Source: Cellulophaga algicola DSM 14237 (GTDB lineage: Bacteria; Bacteroidota; Bacteroidia; Flavobacteriales; Flavobacteriaceae). From it: a DNA stretch of 64,000 nt. The DNA lies in contig NC_014934.1 in assembly GCF_000186265.1 (NCBI RefSeq), positions 310,001 to 374,000 of the forward strand. The letters run 5' to 3'. Under the pieces are notes generated by a model that did not search any database, was not told the DNA's origin, and was given only the letters and a program-made list of their open reading frames with translations. Below are positions 13,379 to 22,606 of the stretch, piece after piece (the stretch's first letter is position 1; each line of letters begins with the position of its first letter). Made by a program: the position numbers and the translations under genes.

Positions 13379-14131
13379 TTAATCTCCTTTAAGCCAATAA
13401 ATAGCTCCAAAAATGTGGTCTAAAAAGTTTTTGTCTTTAAATGATTCTGGTTTATGCCCCAAAGCGGTATAAAACGATCTTCCTCCTTCATACTCTTGAT
13501 ACCATGAAATGGGATGTTTCTCTCCCATTCCTTTTAAAGGAATGTCATCATAACCAGCAGTAAAATCATAAGAAGCTTCATCAACTGTCATTAGAATAGT
13601 AAGTTTATCTAAATTCATGTTTTCGAAGTTATACCACTCATCACTACGAAGCCATTTCTTTGGTAGATGCCATGTTGCCGAAAAATCTTTATCCTCTACG
13701 TTTACAATTGCGGCTTGTAATTTTGGGTGATTCACAAATTTCGCTCCAACAAGACCGTCAAACCAAGTATTATCGTTTTCGCCATCTGCTGTTCCGTGTA
13801 TACCTAAAAAACCTCCCCCACGCTTCATAAATGCTTTTAAAGCGATCATGTGTTTTGGCATTAAATAATTTGCATTGGCGTTCATAAAAATTACCACATC
13901 ATATGCTGGTAATTTCTCAATAAGATCATTGGGTCTTTGTGTCCAATCAAAAATAAACTGATTTTCTGTTGCCATTTCTTCAAAAGCTTGAACAGCAACA
14001 GGAATGCTATTGTAATGCCAATCATCATGTTGGGTGAACAATAAAACACTAAACTGATCTTGAGCACTCGTTTTAATCATTGTAAAAAATATTATAGTTA
14101 ATAACAGATACTTTATTGTTAAGAATTTCAT
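13379..14131 (-). CDS. ThuA-like domain secreted protein
   Basis: About 250 residues from the ATG at 14131, which opens a clean signal peptide (MKFLTIKYLLLTIIFFTMIK, cleavage after TSAQ). ThuA hallmarks are VLLFTQHDDWHYNSIP, YDVVIFMNAN, FMKRGGGFLGIHGTADG and the C-terminal ISWYQEYEGGRSFYTALGH. ThuA folds like a class I glutamine amidotransferase without the triad. Its first-named member belongs to a trehalose-use operon; secreted copies are frequent in Bacteroidota sugar loci. The role is probably handling of sugars or oligosaccharides in the periplasm. It lies 82 bp upstream of the DUF5916 gene and is likely in the same transcript. Confidence 0.85.
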   Translation of the reverse strand: MKFLTIKYLLLTIIFFTMIKTSAQDQFSVLLFTQHDDWHYNSIPVAVQAFEEMATENQFIFDWTQRPNDLIEKLPAYDVVIFMNANANYLMPKHMIALKAFMKRGGGFLGIHGTADGENDNTWFDGLVGAKFVNHPKLQAAIVNVEDKDFSATWHLPKKWLRSDEWYNFENMNLDKLTILMTVDEASYDFTAGYDDIPLKGMGEKHPISWYQEYEGGRSFYTALGHKPESFKDKNFLDHIFGAIYWLKGD

Positions 14132-14243
14132 CGTAAAACATTTATTTTCATAATTCATATTTTCCCAGACTAAGCCAATGCTTGTCATTGTTACCTAGCT
14201 GTAATCTTAATAGTTCTTCAATCACCTATTATAAAGCTGCCTT

Positions 14244-14480
14244 TTAATGATCTGAAATTGTTTTATGCCACCAATCTTCAATTTCTTTTTCACTTTTATC
14301 AATTGAATAGTAAAAGTCATAGCATTAAAAAAACGCATGCCATTTTTTTCTACTAAACCTTTAACTAAAACCAACTTAATATCAATGTATTTTGATAATT
14401 CTTTTAACTGGTTCTCTTATCTATATGGTGCATTTACCAACAGGCTTTGAGAAATAAAAATGCTTAAAAGTGGACTTGAT
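14244..14480 (-). pseudogene. Decayed C-terminal gene fragment of unknown family
   Basis: On the minus strand a protein-like string reads NAPYR, stop, ENQLKELSKYIDIKLVLVKG, then EKNGMRFFNA. After a one-base frame change it continues YDFYYSIDKSEKEIEDWWHK and TISDH to a TAA at 14244-14246. The internal stop and frameshift, with good composition on both sides, indicate an old gene remnant rather than a working gene. I could not assign a family. It lies between the ThuA and alkaline phosphatase genes. Confidence 0.45.
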
Positions 14481-14563
14481 ACTATTTTAGAGTGCAACAT
14501 TATTTTGAAATTAAAAGCTATAACCATAGGTATAAACTACGATACATGAATAAAAAAAATGTA

Positions 14564-15694
14564 TTACTTGGTATTCTTCCAATTTGTTAGTTCAAATATT
14601 TTATGAAAAATACCGGTGTTTTCATATATCCCATTAAATGCCTCAGAACCTGGACCAAAAGCAAACACCGGAATTAAAGTGGCAGAATGTCCTTTGGTTG
14701 AAAACGTACCTGTAATCTCCTTATAATCGTCATAAGTGGTACCATCTTCTTTTTCCTTTGGGGTAGAGGCTAATGTAAAACCTCCTGTTTCATGATCTGC
14801 AGTTACAATAACCAAAGTATTGCCATCTTTCTCTGCAAAATCTAGCGCTTTACCTACAGCGTCATCAAAATCAATTAATTCAGATATCAAATAATCAGCA
14901 TCATTAGAATGACCTCCCCAATCTACTTGCGAACCTTCTATCATCATAAAAAAACCAGATTTAGCAGCATCTTTATTCAAAAATTCTATACCTAATTCTG
15001 TTGCTTTAGGTAAAAAATCTCCTCGTCCTTTTGCCACCGCATTCATATGCTCTTCGGCTAATAAATAAGCCATTTTAGAATGTTTTTTAATTTCTGAAAA
15101 ACTTCCCAAAGCAGTTGTATCTACCTCAAATCCATTTACTTTTAATTCTGCTAATAAATTTTTCCCATCTTTTCTTTTAGTAAGAAATTGTCTTCCACCA
15201 CCGGCTAAAAAGTCTACATCAGAAGTAACTAAATCTAAAGCAATATCTTCATATTGGCTTCTATGTAAAACATGCGCATAAAAACTAGCTGGAGTGGCAT
15301 GTTGTATTGACGAGGTTGCAATTAATCCGGTTTTAACATGTTGTGGAGCTAAAATCTCTACCAAAGTTTTTAAATGCGAGGAGTCTACAGCAACACCAAC
15401 AGCACCATTGTACGTCTTTTCTCCTGTTGAAAAAGCTGTTGCTCCAGCAGCAGAATCTGTAACATCTTCTGTTGCAGAAGAGGTCTTAATAAGTCCGATT
15501 GACTTAAACCTTGCGTAATTTGGTTTGGTCTTTTTAAAATAAAATGCAGAGGATACTTGAGACAAACCGGTACCATCTGCTATTAAAAGAATAACATTCT
15601 TAGCTTTTGGTCTTAACTCTTCTTTAATAACTGCAGATTTGCAGGAAATTAATGTTACTAAAAGGGCTATAAAAATACTATTTCTATAAATCAT
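14564..15694 (-). CDS. Alkaline phosphatase (PhoA family) lipoprotein
   Basis: A 376-residue PhoA-superfamily enzyme. The lipobox VTLISC places it on a membrane. Key residues: metal-binding D40 in LIADGTG, the nucleophile serine S81 in VTDSAAGATAFSTG, metal ligands in EGSQVDWGGHSND and TADHETGG, and the late histidine in TKGHSATL. It would remove phosphate from monoesters in the periplasm or at the surface, releasing phosphate for uptake. It is somewhat shorter than E. coli PhoA and lacks an obvious crown insertion. Its position in the xylan region may be incidental. Confidence 0.92.
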   Translation of the reverse strand: MIYRNSIFIALLVTLISCKSAVIKEELRPKAKNVILLIADGTGLSQVSSAFYFKKTKPNYARFKSIGLIKTSSATEDVTDSAAGATAFSTGEKTYNGAVGVAVDSSHLKTLVEILAPQHVKTGLIATSSIQHATPASFYAHVLHRSQYEDIALDLVTSDVDFLAGGGRQFLTKRKDGKNLLAELKVNGFEVDTTALGSFSEIKKHSKMAYLLAEEHMNAVAKGRGDFLPKATELGIEFLNKDAAKSGFFMMIEGSQVDWGGHSNDADYLISELIDFDDAVGKALDFAEKDGNTLVIVTADHETGGFTLASTPKEKEDGTTYDDYKEITGTFSTKGHSATLIPVFAFGPGSEAFNGIYENTGIFHKIFELTNWKNTK

Positions 15695-15720
15695 AAATTC
15701 TGTTTTCAGAGTTATTAATA

Positions 15721-15890
15721 TTAAATTATGTTCTTGTTTTTAAACCAATAATAAACGGCTTTGTTTGTCCTTTTTTTTAACTGATAAAGTTGTGTACATC
15801 CCATAAATTACACCTACAAAACCGTGAACTTTTAAGTACTTAAAAAAGTAGCGTCTACTTTTTTATTTATCAATTGTCAATCTTCATTAT
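15721..15890 (-). pseudogene. Decayed remnant of a second GH43 C-terminus
   Basis: Minus-strand sequence matches the end of the intact GH43 gene at 17105-18784 across two frame changes. The remnant reads VDATFLST, then GFVGVIYGMYTTL, then NKAVYYWFKNKNII and stop. The intact gene has VDARFLST, GFVGTIYGMYSTSL and NTAEYDWFETENLNKL. Similarity at the DNA level is also visible. It shows that the cluster once held another GH43-type gene or a duplicated copy. Confidence 0.65.
15842..15864. terminator. Intrinsic terminator-like hairpin
   Basis: A perfect 10-bp stem, AAAAAAGTAG and CTACTTTTTT, closes a 3-nt loop and works in both directions. It lies downstream of the minus-strand GH26-like gene and would end the GH10-GH43-GH26 transcript before the phosphatase gene. 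It arose inside the decayed GH43 fragment. Confidence 0.65.
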
Positions 15891-16007
15891 TTATCCGCGC
15901 ACCGGACTACTATCTTAATCTATCTTCTTAAGAAAAAAACCTATTTTTTCTTTAAGTAGCAGCAACAAATCACTAAAAATCTAGACCTAGATATAGTTTA
16001 TCTCTAC

Positions 16008-16997
16008 TTATTTATTTTCCAGGTGAATAAATATTGGGTTCTCCATTTTCATTTTATAAGCCTTCAATACAAACGTATTTTTTTCTATACGGGCATCTTT
16101 CCAATCATGCCATTGAAAACCAATTTTATTAGACCAATAGATCCAATCCCAATTGATGTAGCAAAATGCTTTTATTCCTGGGTTATCATATAACATTTCA
16201 AAAAAAGGATTGAACCATTTATCCCAAGAAATTTCACCATCTAAGACTCCAACATAGCGTGGGGTGGATTCGCCAATCATCACTGGTTTTTCATGAATAT
16301 GGGCACTATCAAAAAAGTTTTGTAAACCAATATGATCAAATTCTTCAGGGCTAAAAATATCAATACCCCACCAATCTACATATTGGTCACCAGGATAATA
16401 TGCCATTAGCTTTTCAAGACTCATAAAATTTGCAGAGCCACCTCCAGAACACCAAACTGTAGCCGATTTTATATTCTTTTCTTTAAATGCCTTTGAAATA
16501 ATTAGGAATACTTTTTTAAAACTTTCAGGAGAATATCCATTCCAATCGCCCTCAAACTCGTACCCTATTCTGGTAAAGGAAGGTCTGTCTAAATCCAAAA
16601 GTACTTTATAGAATGCTTGTAATTGTTTGTCATATTTTCCATCAGCTACGTCTGTATCTAAACCTGCCCCAGTATCCTTACCTCCTGTAAATCCTAAACC
16701 AATTTGAGGCATTATCCCTTTGGGCAAACTATCTAAAACATGTTTTAAATCTTTTCCCCAAGATTCAATCTTTTTTACTGGTGCGGTTATATTAACATAA
16801 GTCATATATATAGCAGGCATCTTGCTTTGACCAACGGCATTTACATAATCCTGAAACCCATTTTTATCCTGACCAGCACCGTGATAAATTCCTATTTCTG
16901 GTTCGTATTTAGCATTATAATTAAAACGGGGGATAACCTCTTGGCTAAATCCATTTTGCAAAAACAACAACAGAACAATTAAACTTATTTTATGCAT
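16008..16997 (-). CDS. Secreted TIM-barrel glycoside hydrolase, GH26-like
   Basis: A 329-residue exported protein (signal peptide MHKISLIVLLLFLQNGFSQ). The mature part looks like a (beta/alpha)8 barrel with two candidate catalytic glutamates: one in RIGYEFEGDWNGYSPESFKK, in the place where GH26 enzymes carry their acid/base, and one in PVMIGESTPRYVG at the end of a later strand, the place of the nucleophile. WWGIDIFSPEE and CYINWDWIYWS add the aromatic residues of a sugar cleft. Known GH26 activities include beta-mannanase and beta-1,3-xylanase. Since it sits beside GH43 and GH10 genes, a role on xylan is favoured, but the family assignment is tentative. Confidence 0.6.
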   Translation of the reverse strand: MHKISLIVLLLFLQNGFSQEVIPRFNYNAKYEPEIGIYHGAGQDKNGFQDYVNAVGQSKMPAIYMTYVNITAPVKKIESWGKDLKHVLDSLPKGIMPQIGLGFTGGKDTGAGLDTDVADGKYDKQLQAFYKVLLDLDRPSFTRIGYEFEGDWNGYSPESFKKVFLIISKAFKEKNIKSATVWCSGGGSANFMSLEKLMAYYPGDQYVDWWGIDIFSPEEFDHIGLQNFFDSAHIHEKPVMIGESTPRYVGVLDGEISWDKWFNPFFEMLYDNPGIKAFCYINWDWIYWSNKIGFQWHDWKDARIEKNTFVLKAYKMKMENPIFIHLENK

Positions 16998-17104
16998 AAC
17001 TGATAAACCTCTTAATTATATAATTTTTTAAATTTGTTTTCAATACGATTTGAAAAACAACATAACACACCAATTTGTAAGCATTTTAAACACTAGCTTA
17101 CAGC

Positions 17105-18784
17105 TTACAATTTGTTTAAATTCTCTGTTTCAAACCAATCATACTCAGCCGTATTTTCACATGTAACCCCTAATGAAGTTGAATACATTCCGTAAATGGT
17201 TCCTACAAATCCGCCAGCTACCTTAGTGCTTAAAAAGCGTGCATCAACAGTATCCTTTAATAGTTGCCAATTGTTCTCTCCTTCAGCAAACAAAAAACTG
17301 TATGTAGCTCCTTTTGCCTCTATTTTTAATTTAATTGAAGTATTTAATTGAAGCGGTTTTTCAATTAGTAACTCCAAAGTATCTTCCTTAGATTTTAATA
17401 ATTGAATTACAGGTTTATTATCTTTTAAACTCTTACATAAATAGTAATAATGTTGTTCATTTTGAAAAGCAATTAAGCCCGCTTTTTCATTTTCAGAAAC
17501 TGGTTTAAAAGTTAGGTTTGTAGTTACATTCCCAAATAAATGTTTTTGTCTATACCCTATAAAACTTGGGTTTGAAGCACCCGAAGTAGTTTCTGGACGT
17601 GTATGTATCTTTAATTTTCCATTTAAAATTGAATACCATTTTTCTTTTGGAGTTCTTAAAAAAATCCAGTCAAAAGCTAATGAATTCGAATTAAATTCAT
17701 CTTTAAAATCAACATTTCTAGATGTCGTTTTAGTTGCTAATTTAGCTAAGGATATTTTATAATTATCTTTTACAATATCTCCTTCTAAATCAAAAATAGG
17801 CCAATCATTTTTCCATTTTACAGGAACCATAAATGTTTCTCTTCCTGTATTAAAATGCCCCTCATTATCGTAAGGTCTACAACCTAGAAAAACGCCCCAC
17901 CAATTTCCATTATTGTCTTCAATAATATCTGCATGACCTGTTGATGTAACTGGATTTTCTCTATTCGCATCCAAATGTCTTTGGGTTAAAATAGGATTAT
18001 CTTTATAACTTACATAAGGCCCTTTTACATTTTTACTTCTAAAAACAACTTCGGAATGCTCATCAGAGGTTCCGCCTTCTGCTGCCATTAAATAGTAATA
18101 TCCGTTTTCTTGATAAATATGAGGTCCTTCAATCCATATGGGCTTATCTTCTGGTTTCGCTCCTTTATTAATAACTATTTGGGCACTGCCGACCACTTTT
18201 AAAGTTTCTAAATCGAATTCGTAAATTTTTATAGTACGATGACCATCATATTCTGGTTTATTATCTGGTGATTCGCTGTTGTAAACGATATATGATTTTC
18301 CATCTTTATCAAAAAAAAGTGATGGGTCTATACCCGAAAGTTCTGGAATCCAATTAGGATTAGACCATGGACCCTCAGGATTTTTAGCGGTAACCACAAA
18401 ATTATTTTCACCTCCAACTAAGGTACAAACCAAGTAATATAAACCTTTGTGATAGTTAATTGCAGGAGCAAAAATACCACTTGAAACATCTAAACCATCT
18501 AAATTTAATTGCTCTGGTCTGTCTAATACGTTTCCTATTTGTTTCCAATTCACTAAATCTGAACTTTTAAATATAGGAATACCAGGAAAATAAGCAAACG
18601 TAGAATTAACCATGTAAAAATCTCCATTAACCTTACAGATACTCGGGTCTGGATAAAAACCTTGTAGAATAGGATTGGAGTATGTACTTGTCTGAGATTT
18701 TATTTGTTGTTTTTCATGACTTTCATTTTTACAATAGGTCATTAAAAATACAGAAACAAATAATAGAAAAACAACCCTTTTCAT
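17105..18784 (-). CDS. GH43 family beta-xylosidase/arabinofuranosidase, probable lipoprotein
   Basis: A 559-residue protein. Its signal peptide ends near C18 (FLMTYCKNE), a relaxed lipobox. Residues 33-330 form a five-bladed GH43 propeller with the three acidic residues in place: base D46 in FYPDPS, pKa-tuning D153 in SGIDPSLF and acid E219 in IWIEGPHIY. Residues 365-555 form a C-terminal concanavalin A-like sandwich usual in xylosidases of this family. It would release xylose or arabinose from xylo-oligosaccharides. It starts 2 bp after the stop of the GH10 gene, so the two are translated from one transcript. A decayed copy of its 3' end lies at 15721-15890. Confidence 0.92.
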   Translation of the reverse strand: MKRVVFLLFVSVFLMTYCKNESHEKQQIKSQTSTYSNPILQGFYPDPSICKVNGDFYMVNSTFAYFPGIPIFKSSDLVNWKQIGNVLDRPEQLNLDGLDVSSGIFAPAINYHKGLYYLVCTLVGGENNFVVTAKNPEGPWSNPNWIPELSGIDPSLFFDKDGKSYIVYNSESPDNKPEYDGHRTIKIYEFDLETLKVVGSAQIVINKGAKPEDKPIWIEGPHIYQENGYYYLMAAEGGTSDEHSEVVFRSKNVKGPYVSYKDNPILTQRHLDANRENPVTSTGHADIIEDNNGNWWGVFLGCRPYDNEGHFNTGRETFMVPVKWKNDWPIFDLEGDIVKDNYKISLAKLATKTTSRNVDFKDEFNSNSLAFDWIFLRTPKEKWYSILNGKLKIHTRPETTSGASNPSFIGYRQKHLFGNVTTNLTFKPVSENEKAGLIAFQNEQHYYYLCKSLKDNKPVIQLLKSKEDTLELLIEKPLQLNTSIKLKIEAKGATYSFLFAEGENNWQLLKDTVDARFLSTKVAGGFVGTIYGMYSTSLGVTCENTAEYDWFETENLNKL

Positions 18785-18786
18785 AT

Positions 18787-19878
18787 TTATAATTTTTCAT
18801 TTAAACCTTCTAAAACACTAAAATATGCAGGTTTTGGTTCTAAGTTTTCATCATAAATTGTTGGCCAATCTTTCATTTTAAAAAAACCACTAATCCAGCT
18901 ATCTCTATCTGTAAAATCCCAAAAAGTAATACCATATTGTTGCTTTTCAGGAACTATAGAACGGTACATTTTAATAAGGTTTTTATACTTTTCTGCTTGT
19001 TTATTTTTCATCTCATCGGTAAGCTCATCATACAATTGAATACCTCCACCTCTAGTATCATTATGTGTATTAAAAATAATATCAACTTCTGATAGATGAA
19101 TTTGCAAGCCTGTTTTTACTGCTTCTTTTAGCGCATGGGCAATAATATCGTCTGGAATATCCATTCGAGTATGCATTTGAAAACCTATTCCCGAAATCGG
19201 AACGTTTTGGCTTCTTAATTCCTTAATTAGTTTAAGTGTCGCATTAAGTTTTACCGTATCTCTTTCAATATTAAAATCGTTATAAAACAAAACGGCGTTA
19301 GGATCTGCCTCATGCGCATATGTAAATGCCTTGGCAATGTAATCTTTACCAATAGCATTATACCACATGGTTTTCCGAATGGCTCCTCCTGCAGATTCAA
19401 GCCCCTCATTTACTACATCCCATGCTGCTACTTTACCTTTGTAACGCCCCACATAGGTTTTAATATAATCTTCCATAAATTTAGACATCCATAAACTATC
19501 TTTAGATGCTTTTTCTTCTACCCATTTTGGTGTTGAACTATGCCAAATTAAATTGTGTCCAAATAGCCGTTGATTATTGGCTTTAGCATACTTAACAATA
19601 CTATCTACTCCACCCCAATAATATACACCTTCACTAGGCATAACCTTGTTCATCTTCATATCACTTGCTGATGTAATACTATTGAAATTGTTGATTTGTA
19701 AGGCTTGTAATTCTGAATCGCTTAATAATGTTTTAATTTTTATTGCGGTTCCTATAGGAAAGGCTGCATTATTTTTAAGGCTTGTTTTAATTGGTAATAC
19801 CTTCTTCCCGCAAGAAAAAAACAGTGAAAGCATTAGGCATGTGCACAAAGAGTAAAACAAGTGTTTTTTAGAAATCAT
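18787..19878 (-). CDS. GH10 endo-beta-1,4-xylanase lipoprotein
   Basis: A 363-residue GH10 enzyme with a lipobox (LSLFFSC, C23), so it is probably anchored on the cell surface or in the periplasm. Diagnostic motifs: GHNLIWHSSTP, acid/base E158 in WDVVNEGLES, nucleophile E264 in IHLSEVDI and WDFTDRDSW near the end. It is the first gene of the GH10-GH43-GH26-like operon and would make the oligosaccharides that GH43 trims. It differs clearly from the GH10 at 7182-8378, so the two are not recent duplicates. Confidence 0.94.
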   Translation of the reverse strand: MISKKHLFYSLCTCLMLSLFFSCGKKVLPIKTSLKNNAAFPIGTAIKIKTLLSDSELQALQINNFNSITSASDMKMNKVMPSEGVYYWGGVDSIVKYAKANNQRLFGHNLIWHSSTPKWVEEKASKDSLWMSKFMEDYIKTYVGRYKGKVAAWDVVNEGLESAGGAIRKTMWYNAIGKDYIAKAFTYAHEADPNAVLFYNDFNIERDTVKLNATLKLIKELRSQNVPISGIGFQMHTRMDIPDDIIAHALKEAVKTGLQIHLSEVDIIFNTHNDTRGGGIQLYDELTDEMKNKQAEKYKNLIKMYRSIVPEKQQYGITFWDFTDRDSWISGFFKMKDWPTIYDENLEPKPAYFSVLEGLNEKL

Positions 19879-20107
19879 TTTATTAGTTTCGGAAATTAAT
19901 TAAAGCACTAAAACTATTCAACTTTAGGAATTTCAACTAGCACTATTAGGTCAATACTTATAACTAATGTTGCTTATTTCTAATAAAACTTTGGTATTAA
20001 TTAAATTTTAAGAAAGATCTTTAAAATAAAGGTTTTTTCTTATCTATAGTATTATTGTATCCATCACTTTTTACGGTAAGATTCATTATATATTCTCAAG
20101 CATTACT

Positions 20108-20399
20108 CTATTTTACCTCCTCTACTCCTGCACCAGTACCCAATTCATAATCACAAACACTCGACATCATTAGAAGGTAGAGCTAAAGCCATATCGCTTT
20201 CTACAACTTCAATCGCATCAATTACAAATTCTCCTTATACTTTACTCATATCCAAAGCCAAATATGTAGAAGAAGAACTTGTAGCAGATATCCAAGAGTA
20301 CAGGACCTATTTAGGAGCAGTCGTATAACGAACAGCATATTGACCAACGTAAACACTTGGATTTGTAAGTTTTATTTGAAACCCTTTTTGTCGGGGTGA
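20108..20399 (-). pseudogene. Decayed C-terminus of a possible carbohydrate-binding protein
   Basis: Minus-strand translation gives KGFQIKLTNPSVYVGQYAVR, YTTAPK, stop, VLYSWISATSSSSTYLALDM, SKV, stop, GEFVIDAIEVVESDMA, then after a frame change CDYELGTGAGVEEVK and a TAG at 20108-20110. The beta-strand-like text with two internal stops and a frameshift marks a pseudogene. The style recalls C-terminal binding modules of secreted glycan-active proteins; the family is not certain. Its upstream end runs into the tandem array, which may have replaced the rest of the gene. Confidence 0.5.
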
Positions 20400-20402
20400 T
20401 AG

Positions 20403-21680
20403 TACTTTTAGAAGTCCTAACAAACACTCAGTGCAAATGAAAAAGTGAAAGCTTAGGCCTTCTCCTTTTTTGTTTCCAAATGCTTACACAAACAATAGCT
20501 GGATTTGCAGAATCCTAATAAACCCTCATTGCAAATACTAAAATGAAGGCTAATGCCTTCTCTTTTTTTGTGTCCAAACGCTTACACAAACAATAGCCGG
20601 ATTTGCAAAATCCTAATAAACCCTCAGTGCAAATATCAAAATGAAGGCTTAGGCCTTTTCTTTTTTTGTTTCCAAACGCTTACACAAACAATAGCTGGAT
20701 TTGCAGAATCCTAATAAACCCTCATTGCAAATACTAAAATGAAGGCTAATGCCTTCTCATTTTTTGTGTCCAAACGCTTACACAAACAATAGCTGGATTT
20801 GCAGAATCCTAATAAACCCTCATTGCAAATACTAAAATGAAGGCTAATGCCTTCTCATTTTTTGTGTCCAAACGCTTACACAAACAATAGCTGGATTTGC
20901 AGAATCCTAATAAACCCTTATTGAAAATAACAAAATGAAGGCTTAGGCCTTCTCTTTTTTTGTTTCCAAACGCTTACACAAACAATAGCTGGATTTGCAG
21001 AATCCTAAGAAACACTCATTGCAAATATCAAAATGAAGGCTTAGGCCTTCTCTTTTTTTGTTTCCAAACGCTTACACAAACAATAGCTGGATTTGCAGAA
21101 TCCTAAGAAACACTCATTGCAAATATCAAAATGAAGGCTTAGGCCTTCTCTTTTTTTTGATTCCAATCGTTTACAAAAACAATAGCTGGATTTGCAGAAT
21201 CCTAATAAACCCTCAGTGCAAATATCAAAATGAAGGCTTAGGCCTTTTCTTTTTTGTTTCCAAACGCTTACACAAACAATAGCTGGATTTGCAGAATCCT
21301 AATAAACCCTCAGTGCAAATGACAAAGTGAAGGCTATCGCCTTCTCACTTTTTTGATTCCAATCGTTTACAAAAACTACATCTGGATTTGCAGAATCCTA
21401 ATAAACCCTCAGTGCAAATATCAAAATGAAGGCTTAGGCCTTCTCTTTTTTTGTTTCCAAACGCTTACACAAACAATAGCTGGATTTGCAGAATCCTAAT
21501 AAACCCTCAGTGCAAATATCAAAATGAAGGCTATCGCCTTCTCACTTTTTTGATTCCAATCGTTTACAAAAACAATAGCTGGATTTGCAGAATCCTAATA
21601 AACCCTCAGTGCAAATGACAAAGTGAAGGCTATCGCCTTCTCACTTTTTTGATTCCAATCGTTTACAAAAACTATGTTTT
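20403..21680. repeat. Tandem array: 12 full 98-bp units plus a degraded unit
   Basis: The anchor GGATTTGC recurs at 20501, 20599, 20697, 20795, 20893, 20991, 21089, 21188, 21285, 21384, 21482 and 21581, so the period is 97-99 bp. A diverged unit precedes the first. Units 3 and 4 (20697, 20795) are identical. Each unit holds GGATT-TGCAG-AATCC, an ATTTGCA/TGCAAAT pair 20 nt apart, and a terminator-like hairpin GAAGGC-loop-GCCTTC followed by a T-run on the plus strand. The outer stem changes in step: ATG pairs with CAT in units 3 and 4, GTG with CAC in units 9 and 12. A linker dyad is GTTTCCAAAC in some units and GATTCCAATC in others. No protein is encoded and there are no unique spacers. Function unknown. 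Confidence 0.92.
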
Positions 21681-21694
21681 TGACACTTTTGTAA

Positions 21695-21730
21695 TCAAAA
21701 AAGTGAACCATTCACATGGTTCACTTTATC
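21695..21730 (-). terminator. Intrinsic terminator of tRNA-Pro
   Basis: Read on the minus strand, AAAGTGAACCAT and ATGGTTCACTTT form a 12-bp perfect stem around GTGA, followed by more T residues. It begins a few bases after the tRNA 3' end. Its outer sequence closely resembles the plus-strand hairpins of the neighbouring array. Confidence 0.85.
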
Positions 21731-21733
21731 GCT

Positions 21734-21810
21734 TGGTCGGGATGACAGGATTTGAACCTGCGACCACACGGCCCCCAGCCGTGTACGCTACCGGACTGCG
21801 CTACATCCCG
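21734..21810 (-). tRNA. tRNA-Pro (anticodon GGG)
   Basis: The minus strand gives a complete cloverleaf. The acceptor CGGGATG pairs with CATCCCG, followed by A73 and an encoded CCA at 21734-21736. The anticodon stem CACGG/CCGTG holds the loop CTGGGGG (anticodon GGG). The T arm is CAGG-TTCAAAT-CCTG. It decodes proline codons CCC and CCU. Confidence 0.95.
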
Positions 21811-21824
21811 AATTTAATACATAC

Positions 21825-21857
21825 CAAATATACAATTAAGGCGGTTAAATAGGCAAA
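21825..21857 (-). promoter_or_regulatory. Bacteroidota-type promoter of tRNA-Pro
   Basis: On the minus strand a -33 TTTG is followed after 21 nt by a perfect -7 box TATATTTG (TAnnTTTG), and the tRNA starts 14 nt further on. Both boxes and the spacing match the promoter described for Flavobacterium and Bacteroides. Confidence 0.75.
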
Positions 21858-21967
21858 TTTTATCGCGGCATTAATAAAAGTAAACCACTAACAATCAGTT
21901 TTTAAATACTATTTTAAAGGGGTGAATTAGCATATAAAAACTATCTTAGAAGCTTAAAGCATTTAAA

Positions 21968-22606
21968 GTGAAATTTTTACTGTTATTTATAGTGCCCTTT
22001 TATTGTTTAGCACAACCTAATGAATTTTTTAAGGATGAAGTAGCTGCAATTACTGAAAAATATGATTCTATATGGGATTCCTCCAAGGAAACCATCATAT
22101 TTACAGGTAGTTCAAGTGTACGCATGTGGAAATCATTAGAACGCAATTTTCCAGAACATCAAATACTAAATACAGGTTTTGGAGGATCACAAACTATTGA
22201 TTTATTAGGCTATACGGAAGAGCTTATTTTAATGTATCAACCTAAAAAAGTATTCATTTACGAGGGAGACAACGATATATCGTCTAAAAAAAAACATAAA
22301 GAAATACTCCGTAATTTTTCAAAAATCATTAAACAAATAAAAAAGAATGACAGTACTACAAAGGTGGTTATCATCTCTCCGAAACCAAGTATTTCTCGTT
22401 GGAAATTAAAAGGTAAATACAGAAAATTAAATAGAAAATTAAGGCGATTTTGCGATGAAAATGAGAATTTAGAGTTCGCAAACGTATGGGATATCATGCT
22501 CCACAGAAAAAAAATAAAGTCAGATCTTTTTATAAGTGATGGCTTACACATGAATGAAAAAGGATACCAACTCTGGCATTCTATTATTAAAAAATATATA
22601 GATTAA
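21968..22606 (+). CDS. Secreted SGNH/GDSL-family hydrolase
   Basis: A 212-residue protein starting with GTG at 21968; this start gives a good signal peptide (KFLLLFIVPFYCLAQ), and no ATG precedes the SGNH core. SGNH blocks are ordered correctly: block I FTGSSSVRMW with the nucleophile serine, the glycine in NTGFGGSQT, block III in YEGDNDIS, and block V DGLHMNEKGY with the Asp and His. Such enzymes are esterases, often removing acetyl groups from glycans. It opens a three-gene operon with GH20 hexosaminidase (19 bp) and a lactonase, which suggests deacetylation of amino-sugar glycans. Confidence 0.85.
   Translation: MKFLLLFIVPFYCLAQPNEFFKDEVAAITEKYDSIWDSSKETIIFTGSSSVRMWKSLERNFPEHQILNTGFGGSQTIDLLGYTEELILMYQPKKVFIYEGDNDISSKKKHKEILRNFSKIIKQIKKNDSTTKVVIISPKPSISRWKLKGKYRKLNRKLRRFCDENENLEFANVWDIMLHRKKIKSDLFISDGLHMNEKGYQLWHSIIKKYID

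Follow-up and report, generated by a model that had tools for sequence, protein, structure and literature searches.

A tandem array at the 3′ side of tRNA-Pro(GGG) in Cellulophaga algicola as the probable remnant of a foldback unit bounded by tRNA tails

Beside a proline tRNA gene of Cellulophaga algicola DSM 14237 lies a long run of short repeats without any gene. What are these repeats, and how did they come to lie at the end of a tRNA? We analysed a window of 64,000 nucleotides around this locus (NC_014934.1, positions 310,001 to 374,000). Coordinates below are those of the window, and the array, the tRNA and their parts are all on the minus strand. Other genomes and loci are cited by G and L numbers.

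The array and the complete unit beside the tRNA

The array (20416..21672) consists of 13 units of 97-99 bp, and TRF reported it at 20410-21672 with 12.8 copies and 91% match. The tRNA-Pro gene with anticodon GGG (21734..21810; found with ARAGORN, Rfam tRNA 63.5 bits) is transcribed towards it. The initial annotation had described 13 head-to-tail units without coding potential, two of them identical and each with a possible T-tract hairpin, next to tRNA-Pro. This picture was borne out: the spacing is 97-99, the array contains no ORF of at least 80 aa, the identical units are the neighbours at 20710 and 20808, and a plus-strand hairpin followed by 6-8 T is present in 13/13 units. In addition, the adjacency to tRNA-Pro proved to be the central feature rather than a detail. 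In the window's genome (G000, a single contig of 4,888,353 bases), a two-unit query gave no other strong match outside the array locus (next best E 0.13).

The structural claims fared less evenly. The pair ATTTGCA/TGCAAAT is indeed complete in 11/13 units, but it is not the conserved feature; as a conserved pair it was rejected because its pairing breaks in relatives, for example TTTTCA..TGTAAAT in L029. The compensatory outer stem (ATG with CAT, GTG with CAC) is complete in 4/13 units and absent from the other nine. Furthermore, single units of 98-104 nt folded only slightly better than shuffled sequences (five folds, z −1.0 to −2.1). A conserved structure does exist, but the constrained one is a unit of 163-169 nt on the tRNA strand and not the one that had been described.

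The complete tRNA-proximal unit, the tail copies and a distal tail copy at 20390-20409 were all missing from the initial annotation. The complete unit spans 167 nt (21587..21753) and was aligned with 17 other loci. Its RNA fold has −60.2 kcal/mol (z −7.42; 0/200 shuffles as good), its DNA fold has z −7.06, and the tail is paired with the box in the predicted fold. The unit begins with the 3′ tail of tRNA-Pro, AAATCCTGTCATCCCGAC (21736..21753), which reaches from the T-loop to one base beyond the discriminator. Then comes H1 (21697..21727), an intrinsic-terminator-like hairpin with a T run just 3′ of the tRNA and with a 12-pair stem (21727-21700). It is followed by the long hairpin P2 (21642..21705; arms 21689-21705 and 21642-21658, centre 21661-21684), by the second hairpin H2 (21625..21640), which has its T run on the plus strand, and by the box ATTTGCACTGAGGGTTTATTAGGATTCT with 2 variable bases (21587..21616). 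Exact copies of the box lie at 21488, 21390, 21291 and 21194. Part of the box is able to pair back onto the tail, AGGATT with AATCCT and GGG with CCC. Thus, the order on the tRNA strand is tail, H1 with T run, P2, H2, box ATTTGCAnTGAGGGTTTATTAGGATTCTnn and the next AAATCC. In other genera, what comes after the box is the 3′ tail of tRNA-Pro, AAATCCTGTCATCCCGAC, over as many as 18 nt, and this sequence, in exact or nearly exact copies of 17-18 nt, is what is duplicated at the unit ends of relatives.

Each array unit of 98 bp starts about halfway through P2 and is made of the 3′ half of this long hairpin, the second hairpin, the box and AAATCC. The repeats are therefore a truncated version of the complete unit, of which only the 3′ part has been copied in tandem. 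Of the tRNA-Pro tail, the repeated units of the window keep only AAATCC, whereas relatives have full tails. At the far end, the most distal box is diverged (ATTTGCACTGAGTGTTTGTTAGGACTTCT, 20410..20438), and a decayed copy of the tRNA-Pro 3′ tail (20390..20409, 14/18 match) closes the array 1330 nt downstream of tRNA-Pro. We therefore regard the array as probably an amplified remnant of a foldback unit bounded by tRNA tails; together with the whole explanation given below, we assign this reading a probability of roughly 0.6.

Relatives, unit lengths and covariation

A 197-base query was searched against 60 genomes. Three of the 17 congeners, G010, G005 and G016, matched strongly (each with a best E of at most 3.4e-59), and G029, from a different genus, matched less well (3.8e-9). 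In G005, G016 and G029 an array or unit lies 3′ of tRNA-Pro(GGG). In G010 an integrative element, with a tyrosine integrase beside the tRNA, separates the tRNA (357 kb) from the array (306 kb), and the hydrolase gene on the other side of the tRNA is similar to that of the window.

With up to 3 mismatches, the box was found in 26 of 397 Flavobacteriaceae genomes and in 21 of 237 genera (reversed control, 0), so these counts are lower bounds and absences are soft. A phylum draw of 296 genomes comprised 30 of the same family and 266 from elsewhere in the phylum, and in these 266 the box was not found. Of the 26 carriers, 21 have the box downstream of tRNA-Pro(GGG) and on its strand (20 by the first locus, G376 by the second). 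In G373, tRNA-Pro(GGG) is 73 kb from the box on the same contig and beside a tyrosine integrase, and in G251 it is on another contig; both boxes look displaced by insertions. The box is near a contig end in G243, G270 and G323. G067 has a diverged box behind a 70-kb insertion, which the 3-mismatch scan missed. A pattern for a second kind of box (B) matched 6/397 Flavobacteriaceae genomes, and a strict pattern scan of GTDB gave three hits, in Altibacter lentus, Maribacter sedimenticola and Zeaxanthinibacter sp. PT1.

Tandem arrays are common among these loci. TRF was run on 22 loci (L064 and L149 are the same place), and box-bearing arrays with periods of 84-257 were present at 16 loci in 13 genera, one of them, L064, with a variant box; none was found at L106, L062, L148 and L121. 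The arrays of L093 are upstream of its tRNA, the tRNA is displaced at L028 and L147, and it falls outside the fetched contig stretch at L096 and L112. The 3′ part of the unit is tandemly repeated in many genera. Since the array junctions differ between genera, amplification happened more than once. The initial annotation had held that the array would be an isolated satellite if relatives had no homologous arrays and there were neither a transcript nor significant covariation; the homologous arrays and the conserved structure in relatives contradict an isolated satellite.

Arrays were also seen 5′ of proline tRNAs, at L066 (G082; about 1500-2690), L093 (845-1221), L089 (4174-5605) and L116 (1921-2351). 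By eye, the units of L066 start with the 5′ head of the tRNA, followed by the palindrome CCCTTCGACAAGCTCAGGG, and in L093 an array of period 89 runs into the tRNA start.

From a chosen list of 27 loci, 25 gave a unit and two (L144, L220) gave none. The lengths are narrow: 163-169 nt at 18 loci and 127-129 nt at 5 loci. The type I alignment holds the 18 loci of 14 genera with length 160-170 (four rows from the window's genus), and the type II alignment holds the 5 loci with length under 135, so that both use 23 of the 25 extracts. L093 and L113 were left out because a second unit lies between tail and box, and the variant boxes of L064, L066 and L070 are not in the alignments. At L028, L147 and L148 the copies are displaced, and their first bases come from an inserted element. 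Many box positions are invariant across the 18 loci.

For the 18-row alignment, RNAalifold returned one closed structure of 50 pairs, 27 of them with changes on both sides; H2 was added by hand, which gave 56 pairs. In this structure 89.3% of cells are paired (80.3% in shuffles), 29 of the 56 pairs changed on both sides (17.1 in shuffles), and the covariation score is 0.320 (0.169 in shuffles; 0/500 as high), falling to 0.06-0.12 when the structure is slid by 1-3 columns. Four of five measures were reached by 0/500 shuffles, and the fifth, the number of pair types, is weak (12/500 reach the value). P2 has both-sided changes in 8 of 13 stem pairs and 6 of 7 centre pairs over the 18 loci. The unit covaries beyond shuffles, as a structured RNA does. 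However, such covariation could also stem from correction of palindromes by template switching instead of selection. The Rfam search that the initial annotation had called for gave only the tRNA at gathering score; at E ≤ 1, MIR2630 and SQ1002_RNA were added, far below their thresholds.

Tail copies, exchange and insertions at the tRNA

The unit is a discrete palindromic structure of 163-169 or 127-129 nt that begins with the 3′ tail of its tRNA, and intact units are followed by a second copy of that tail. Since the tRNA fixes the tail, there is hardly any covariation in the helices between tail and box; these are supported by other tRNAs, which have other tails and other boxes. The pairing of box and tail exceeded shuffles for tRNA-Ser(TGA) (p 0.005), for Escherichia coli tRNA-Tyr (p 0.001) and moderately for tRNA-Pro(GGG) (p about 0.01), and it was not significant for tRNA-Pro(TGG) (p 0.16 and 0.31). 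For instance, tRNA-Ser(TGA) in the window's genome has a unit of the same architecture with its own tail at the end (13/18) and a fold z of −9.45.

The short type of unit was traced by its 33-nt core, which occurs at 15 places in 12 of 397 Flavobacteriaceae genomes: 6 after tRNA-Pro(GGG), 8 after tRNA-Pro(TGG) and 1 after a GGG tail whose locus has no tRNA gene. The exact 17-nt TGG tail closes 5 of the 8 tRNA-Pro(TGG) units, and the other units are diverged (L258, L262) or decayed (L254). At these loci, the functional tRNA keeps its TGG-type proximal tail, so the tail was duplicated and not swapped.

Tail recurrence was also surveyed for 34 of the 44 tRNA hits in the window's genome, all but the 10 that belong to rRNA operons, and for 26 of 37 of G118. 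At least 13/18 was reached by 10/60 tRNAs, against 4.4% of mismatched-tail controls. After exclusion of two tandem tRNA genes and of L185, which is another tRNA gene, 7/57 were left, three of which are the known proline loci. The tail copies at tRNA-Met and tRNA-Val of G118 lack the full architecture. The genome-wide signal is thus modest, and it is the proline and serine tRNAs that carry the argument.

Units also differ between close relatives. G083 and G303 belong to one genus (rpoB 90.6% identical, next gene common by eye), and G303 has one more 127-bp unit exactly at the tail. One genome of this pair thus has the whole unit there and the other lacks it entirely, a difference that could be a loss by recombination between tails. 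G029 and G282, also of one genus, have different kinds of unit; G282 carries the short type, which it shares with four other genera at 84-94% identity. Compared without the tail, all ten pairs of short-type units fall within 84-94% identity. For six of these pairs, among G118, G130, G303 and Altibacter (represented by G141), rpoB could be compared as well, whereas G282 had no rpoB match. Here the short unit is 84-93% and rpoB 74-85% identical, and the unit is closer every time. To judge from these identities, exchange between genera would be the simpler reading, with strong constraint as the alternative that could also explain them. The order of unit kinds is B-A in G029 and A-B in G113. Furthermore, G083, G303 and G148 have a further copy of the tRNA's terminator behind the distal tail, and the resulting order is tail-terminator, inverted terminator-box, tail-terminator. 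We infer that this direct-inverted-direct order is the pattern that template switching or hairpin-mediated replication would leave.

Larger insertions occur at the same tRNA. Stretches of 27-73 kb are inserted at tRNA-Pro(GGG) in G010 (C1, 306-357 kb), G373 (C4, 77-150 kb), G067 (C1, 235-305 kb) and G001 (C11, 20-47 kb), and a tyrosine integrase, checked with Pfam, lies beside the tRNA in G010, G373 and G067. The sequence shared by element and tRNA begins at CTGTC in G373, G251 and G067, at CCTGTC in G010 and at AATCC in G001. The box was considered as an arm of these known integrative elements and rejected, as by eye it is absent from five element ends.

Function, origin and known systems

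Between 19850 and 22000, both strands together have 26 terminator-like sites against 1.2 expected, and a GC-containing hairpin followed by a T run, as in an intrinsic terminator, is found in all 13 units. H1 looks like a good terminator for tRNA-Pro. From the sequence, the present use of the hairpins is most likely transcription termination, which we hold with moderate confidence. A two-way barrier would make sense in G005 and G016, where the genes beyond the array point towards it; the corresponding genes of the window point away from it. By eye, the arrays of L114 and L103 have lost the plus-strand T run, so a two-way terminator is not universal.

Termination combined with duplication or recombination based on the tails fits the data best, and the units most likely arose by copying or recombination at tRNA tails. 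Through template switching at hairpins or recombination in trans, a copy made at the 3′ end of the tRNA would consist of the tail and a terminator, then the terminator and the tail (imperfectly, as the box) in inverted orientation, and finally the tail again. Units could then pass between related bacteria, being gained or lost through the tails, and the 98-bp part would multiply through slippage or unequal exchange. The hairpins would terminate transcription that leaves tRNA-Pro and, in the window's genome, also transcription entering from the other side. The extra copies would be tolerated rather than needed. This whole explanation carries the probability of 0.6 given above. We put forward a wider statement only tentatively, as something possible: gene-less elements of about 128 or 165 nt enter tRNA 3′ ends, duplicate the local tail of 17-18 nt, carry or acquire an imperfect inverted tail copy, spread between genera and amplify in tandem, at two proline tRNAs and one serine tRNA, with E. 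coli rtT as a distant example.

The data could also be read as an old functional RNA or terminator element 3′ of tRNA-Pro, inherited vertically, selected, often lost and immobile. The fixed position, the fixed lengths (163-169 or 127-129 nt), the strong covariation and the invariant box positions agree with this, and box-negative genomes of box genera can still hold a diverged unit (G332, G405) or a different one (G083). However, 17 of the box genera are represented by two or more genomes, and for 5 of them several genomes carry the box but for the other 12 just one does (a soft count, given the 3-mismatch limit), the unit types of G029 and G282 differ although that of G282 is shared with four other genera, and unit order is reversed between G029 and G113. 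We find immobile inheritance rather improbable for these reasons. If mobility is accepted, a tyrosine recombinase acting in trans might insert the units at the T-loop of the tRNA, the box and tail being attR-like. The tail copies do begin at the T-loop, this tRNA is a hot spot for insertions of 27-73 kb, three of them with a tyrosine integrase, and one whole unit is present or absent in G083 and G303. Nevertheless, the ends of the known elements at tRNA-Pro(GGG) have no box by eye, the proximal tail of tRNA-Pro(TGG) stays TGG-type and is not replaced by the GGG type, and no integrase is linked to the units, which makes such insertion unlikely. Against the explanation that we prefer, too, no recombinase gene was seen with the units, three box or short-unit patterns found nothing in viral contigs, and one search each for the short unit in phages and plasmids found nothing.

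Neutral growth by replication slippage at a hairpin-rich spot, with neither function nor exchange, would account for periods (84-257) and junctions that vary between genera and for the arrays on the 5′ side of tRNA-Pro. It leaves unexplained the box conserved over 21 genera, the constant unit lengths and the compensatory changes; we hold it to be unlikely as a general account, and slippage may still explain copy number within one array. The plus-strand hairpins with 6-8 T suggest instead a tandem family of small RNAs, each with its own terminator and antisense to the tRNA tail, and the upstream sequence of genera that have the full tail is complementary to it. This idea is very unlikely, in our opinion: we saw no convincing Bacteroidota-type promoter in the unit (by eye; the promoter part of the scan of 19850-22000 was for another promoter type), Rfam above threshold was tRNA alone, and by eye the T run is missing from some arrays of other genera. 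Exchange and amplification of a tail-bounded foldback unit, used for termination, remains the reading we prefer.

To our knowledge, E. coli rtT is the one described case of tandem repeats made of tRNA tails. The rtT RNA is released during tRNA processing. As here, rtT/RttR (tyrT/tyrTV) has tandem repeats directly 3′ of a tRNA, and every rtT repeat closes with a copy of the 3′ tail of its tRNA. We re-measured the tyrT locus (NC_000913, L247): the tail copies lie 160, 338 and 516 nt after tyrV, with a period of 178 and matches of 22/22, 22/22 and 21/22. Each 178-bp repeat also holds an inverted tRNA-Tyr tail that can pair with the direct copy (shuffle p 0.001). However, the tRNA is tRNA-Tyr and not tRNA-Pro or tRNA-Ser, the E. 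coli locus has an annotated ncRNA and the tpr ORF while none is known at the array of the window, and the H1/P2/H2 layout and the box were not seen there by eye. The likeness is one of anatomy. Rfam returned no RtT match for our units, tRNA being the only family above threshold. A Salmonella comparison lists a change of rtT copy number (175 bp VNTR) (PMC2658671).

Other known systems resemble the units in part. tRNA 3′ ends are classic landing sites of phages and integrative elements, and attL/attR sites there share the displaced tail copy and the same target tRNA with our units. Nevertheless, neither an element nor an integrase lies between the unit tails, the tail is duplicated at tRNA-Pro(TGG), and five ends of real elements at tRNA-Pro(GGG) have no corresponding arm by eye; complete units of 127-169 nt are too short for an integrase gene. 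Integron attC arrays are likewise tandem structured imperfect palindromes with variable inner and constant outer parts, but the R-box consensus was not recognised by eye, and our units are tied to tRNA tails. H1 and H2 are like intrinsic terminators in being GC-containing hairpins followed by T runs; unlike them, the hairpins are opposed, joined by a long hairpin and framed by tRNA tails and the conserved box. Among the titles listed from open-licence PMC papers, none dealt with such repeats in Bacteroidota.

Throughout the family, the units vary little in length, their structure covaries, and their tails correspond to the local tRNA. This suggests that copying or exchange of such units takes place at tRNA ends, and the origin of tRNA-tail repeats can now be put to the test. 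Should the units move, they would rank as very small site-specific elements; otherwise, they reveal how palindromes next to tRNA genes are built and maintained by replication.

Synteny with G005 and G016 is lost where the array ends distally. To the left of the array, the window has genes that look by eye like alkaline phosphatase, GH43-like and GH10-like xylanase genes (13379-19878), and G005 and G016 have a phospholipase-D-like gene, also by eye, at that side. In addition, contig C3 of G113 holds two sub-threshold tRNA-like hits of 28.6 bits each (111405-111468 and 111762-111825), 357 bp apart, which are perhaps a tandemly repeated tRNA remnant.
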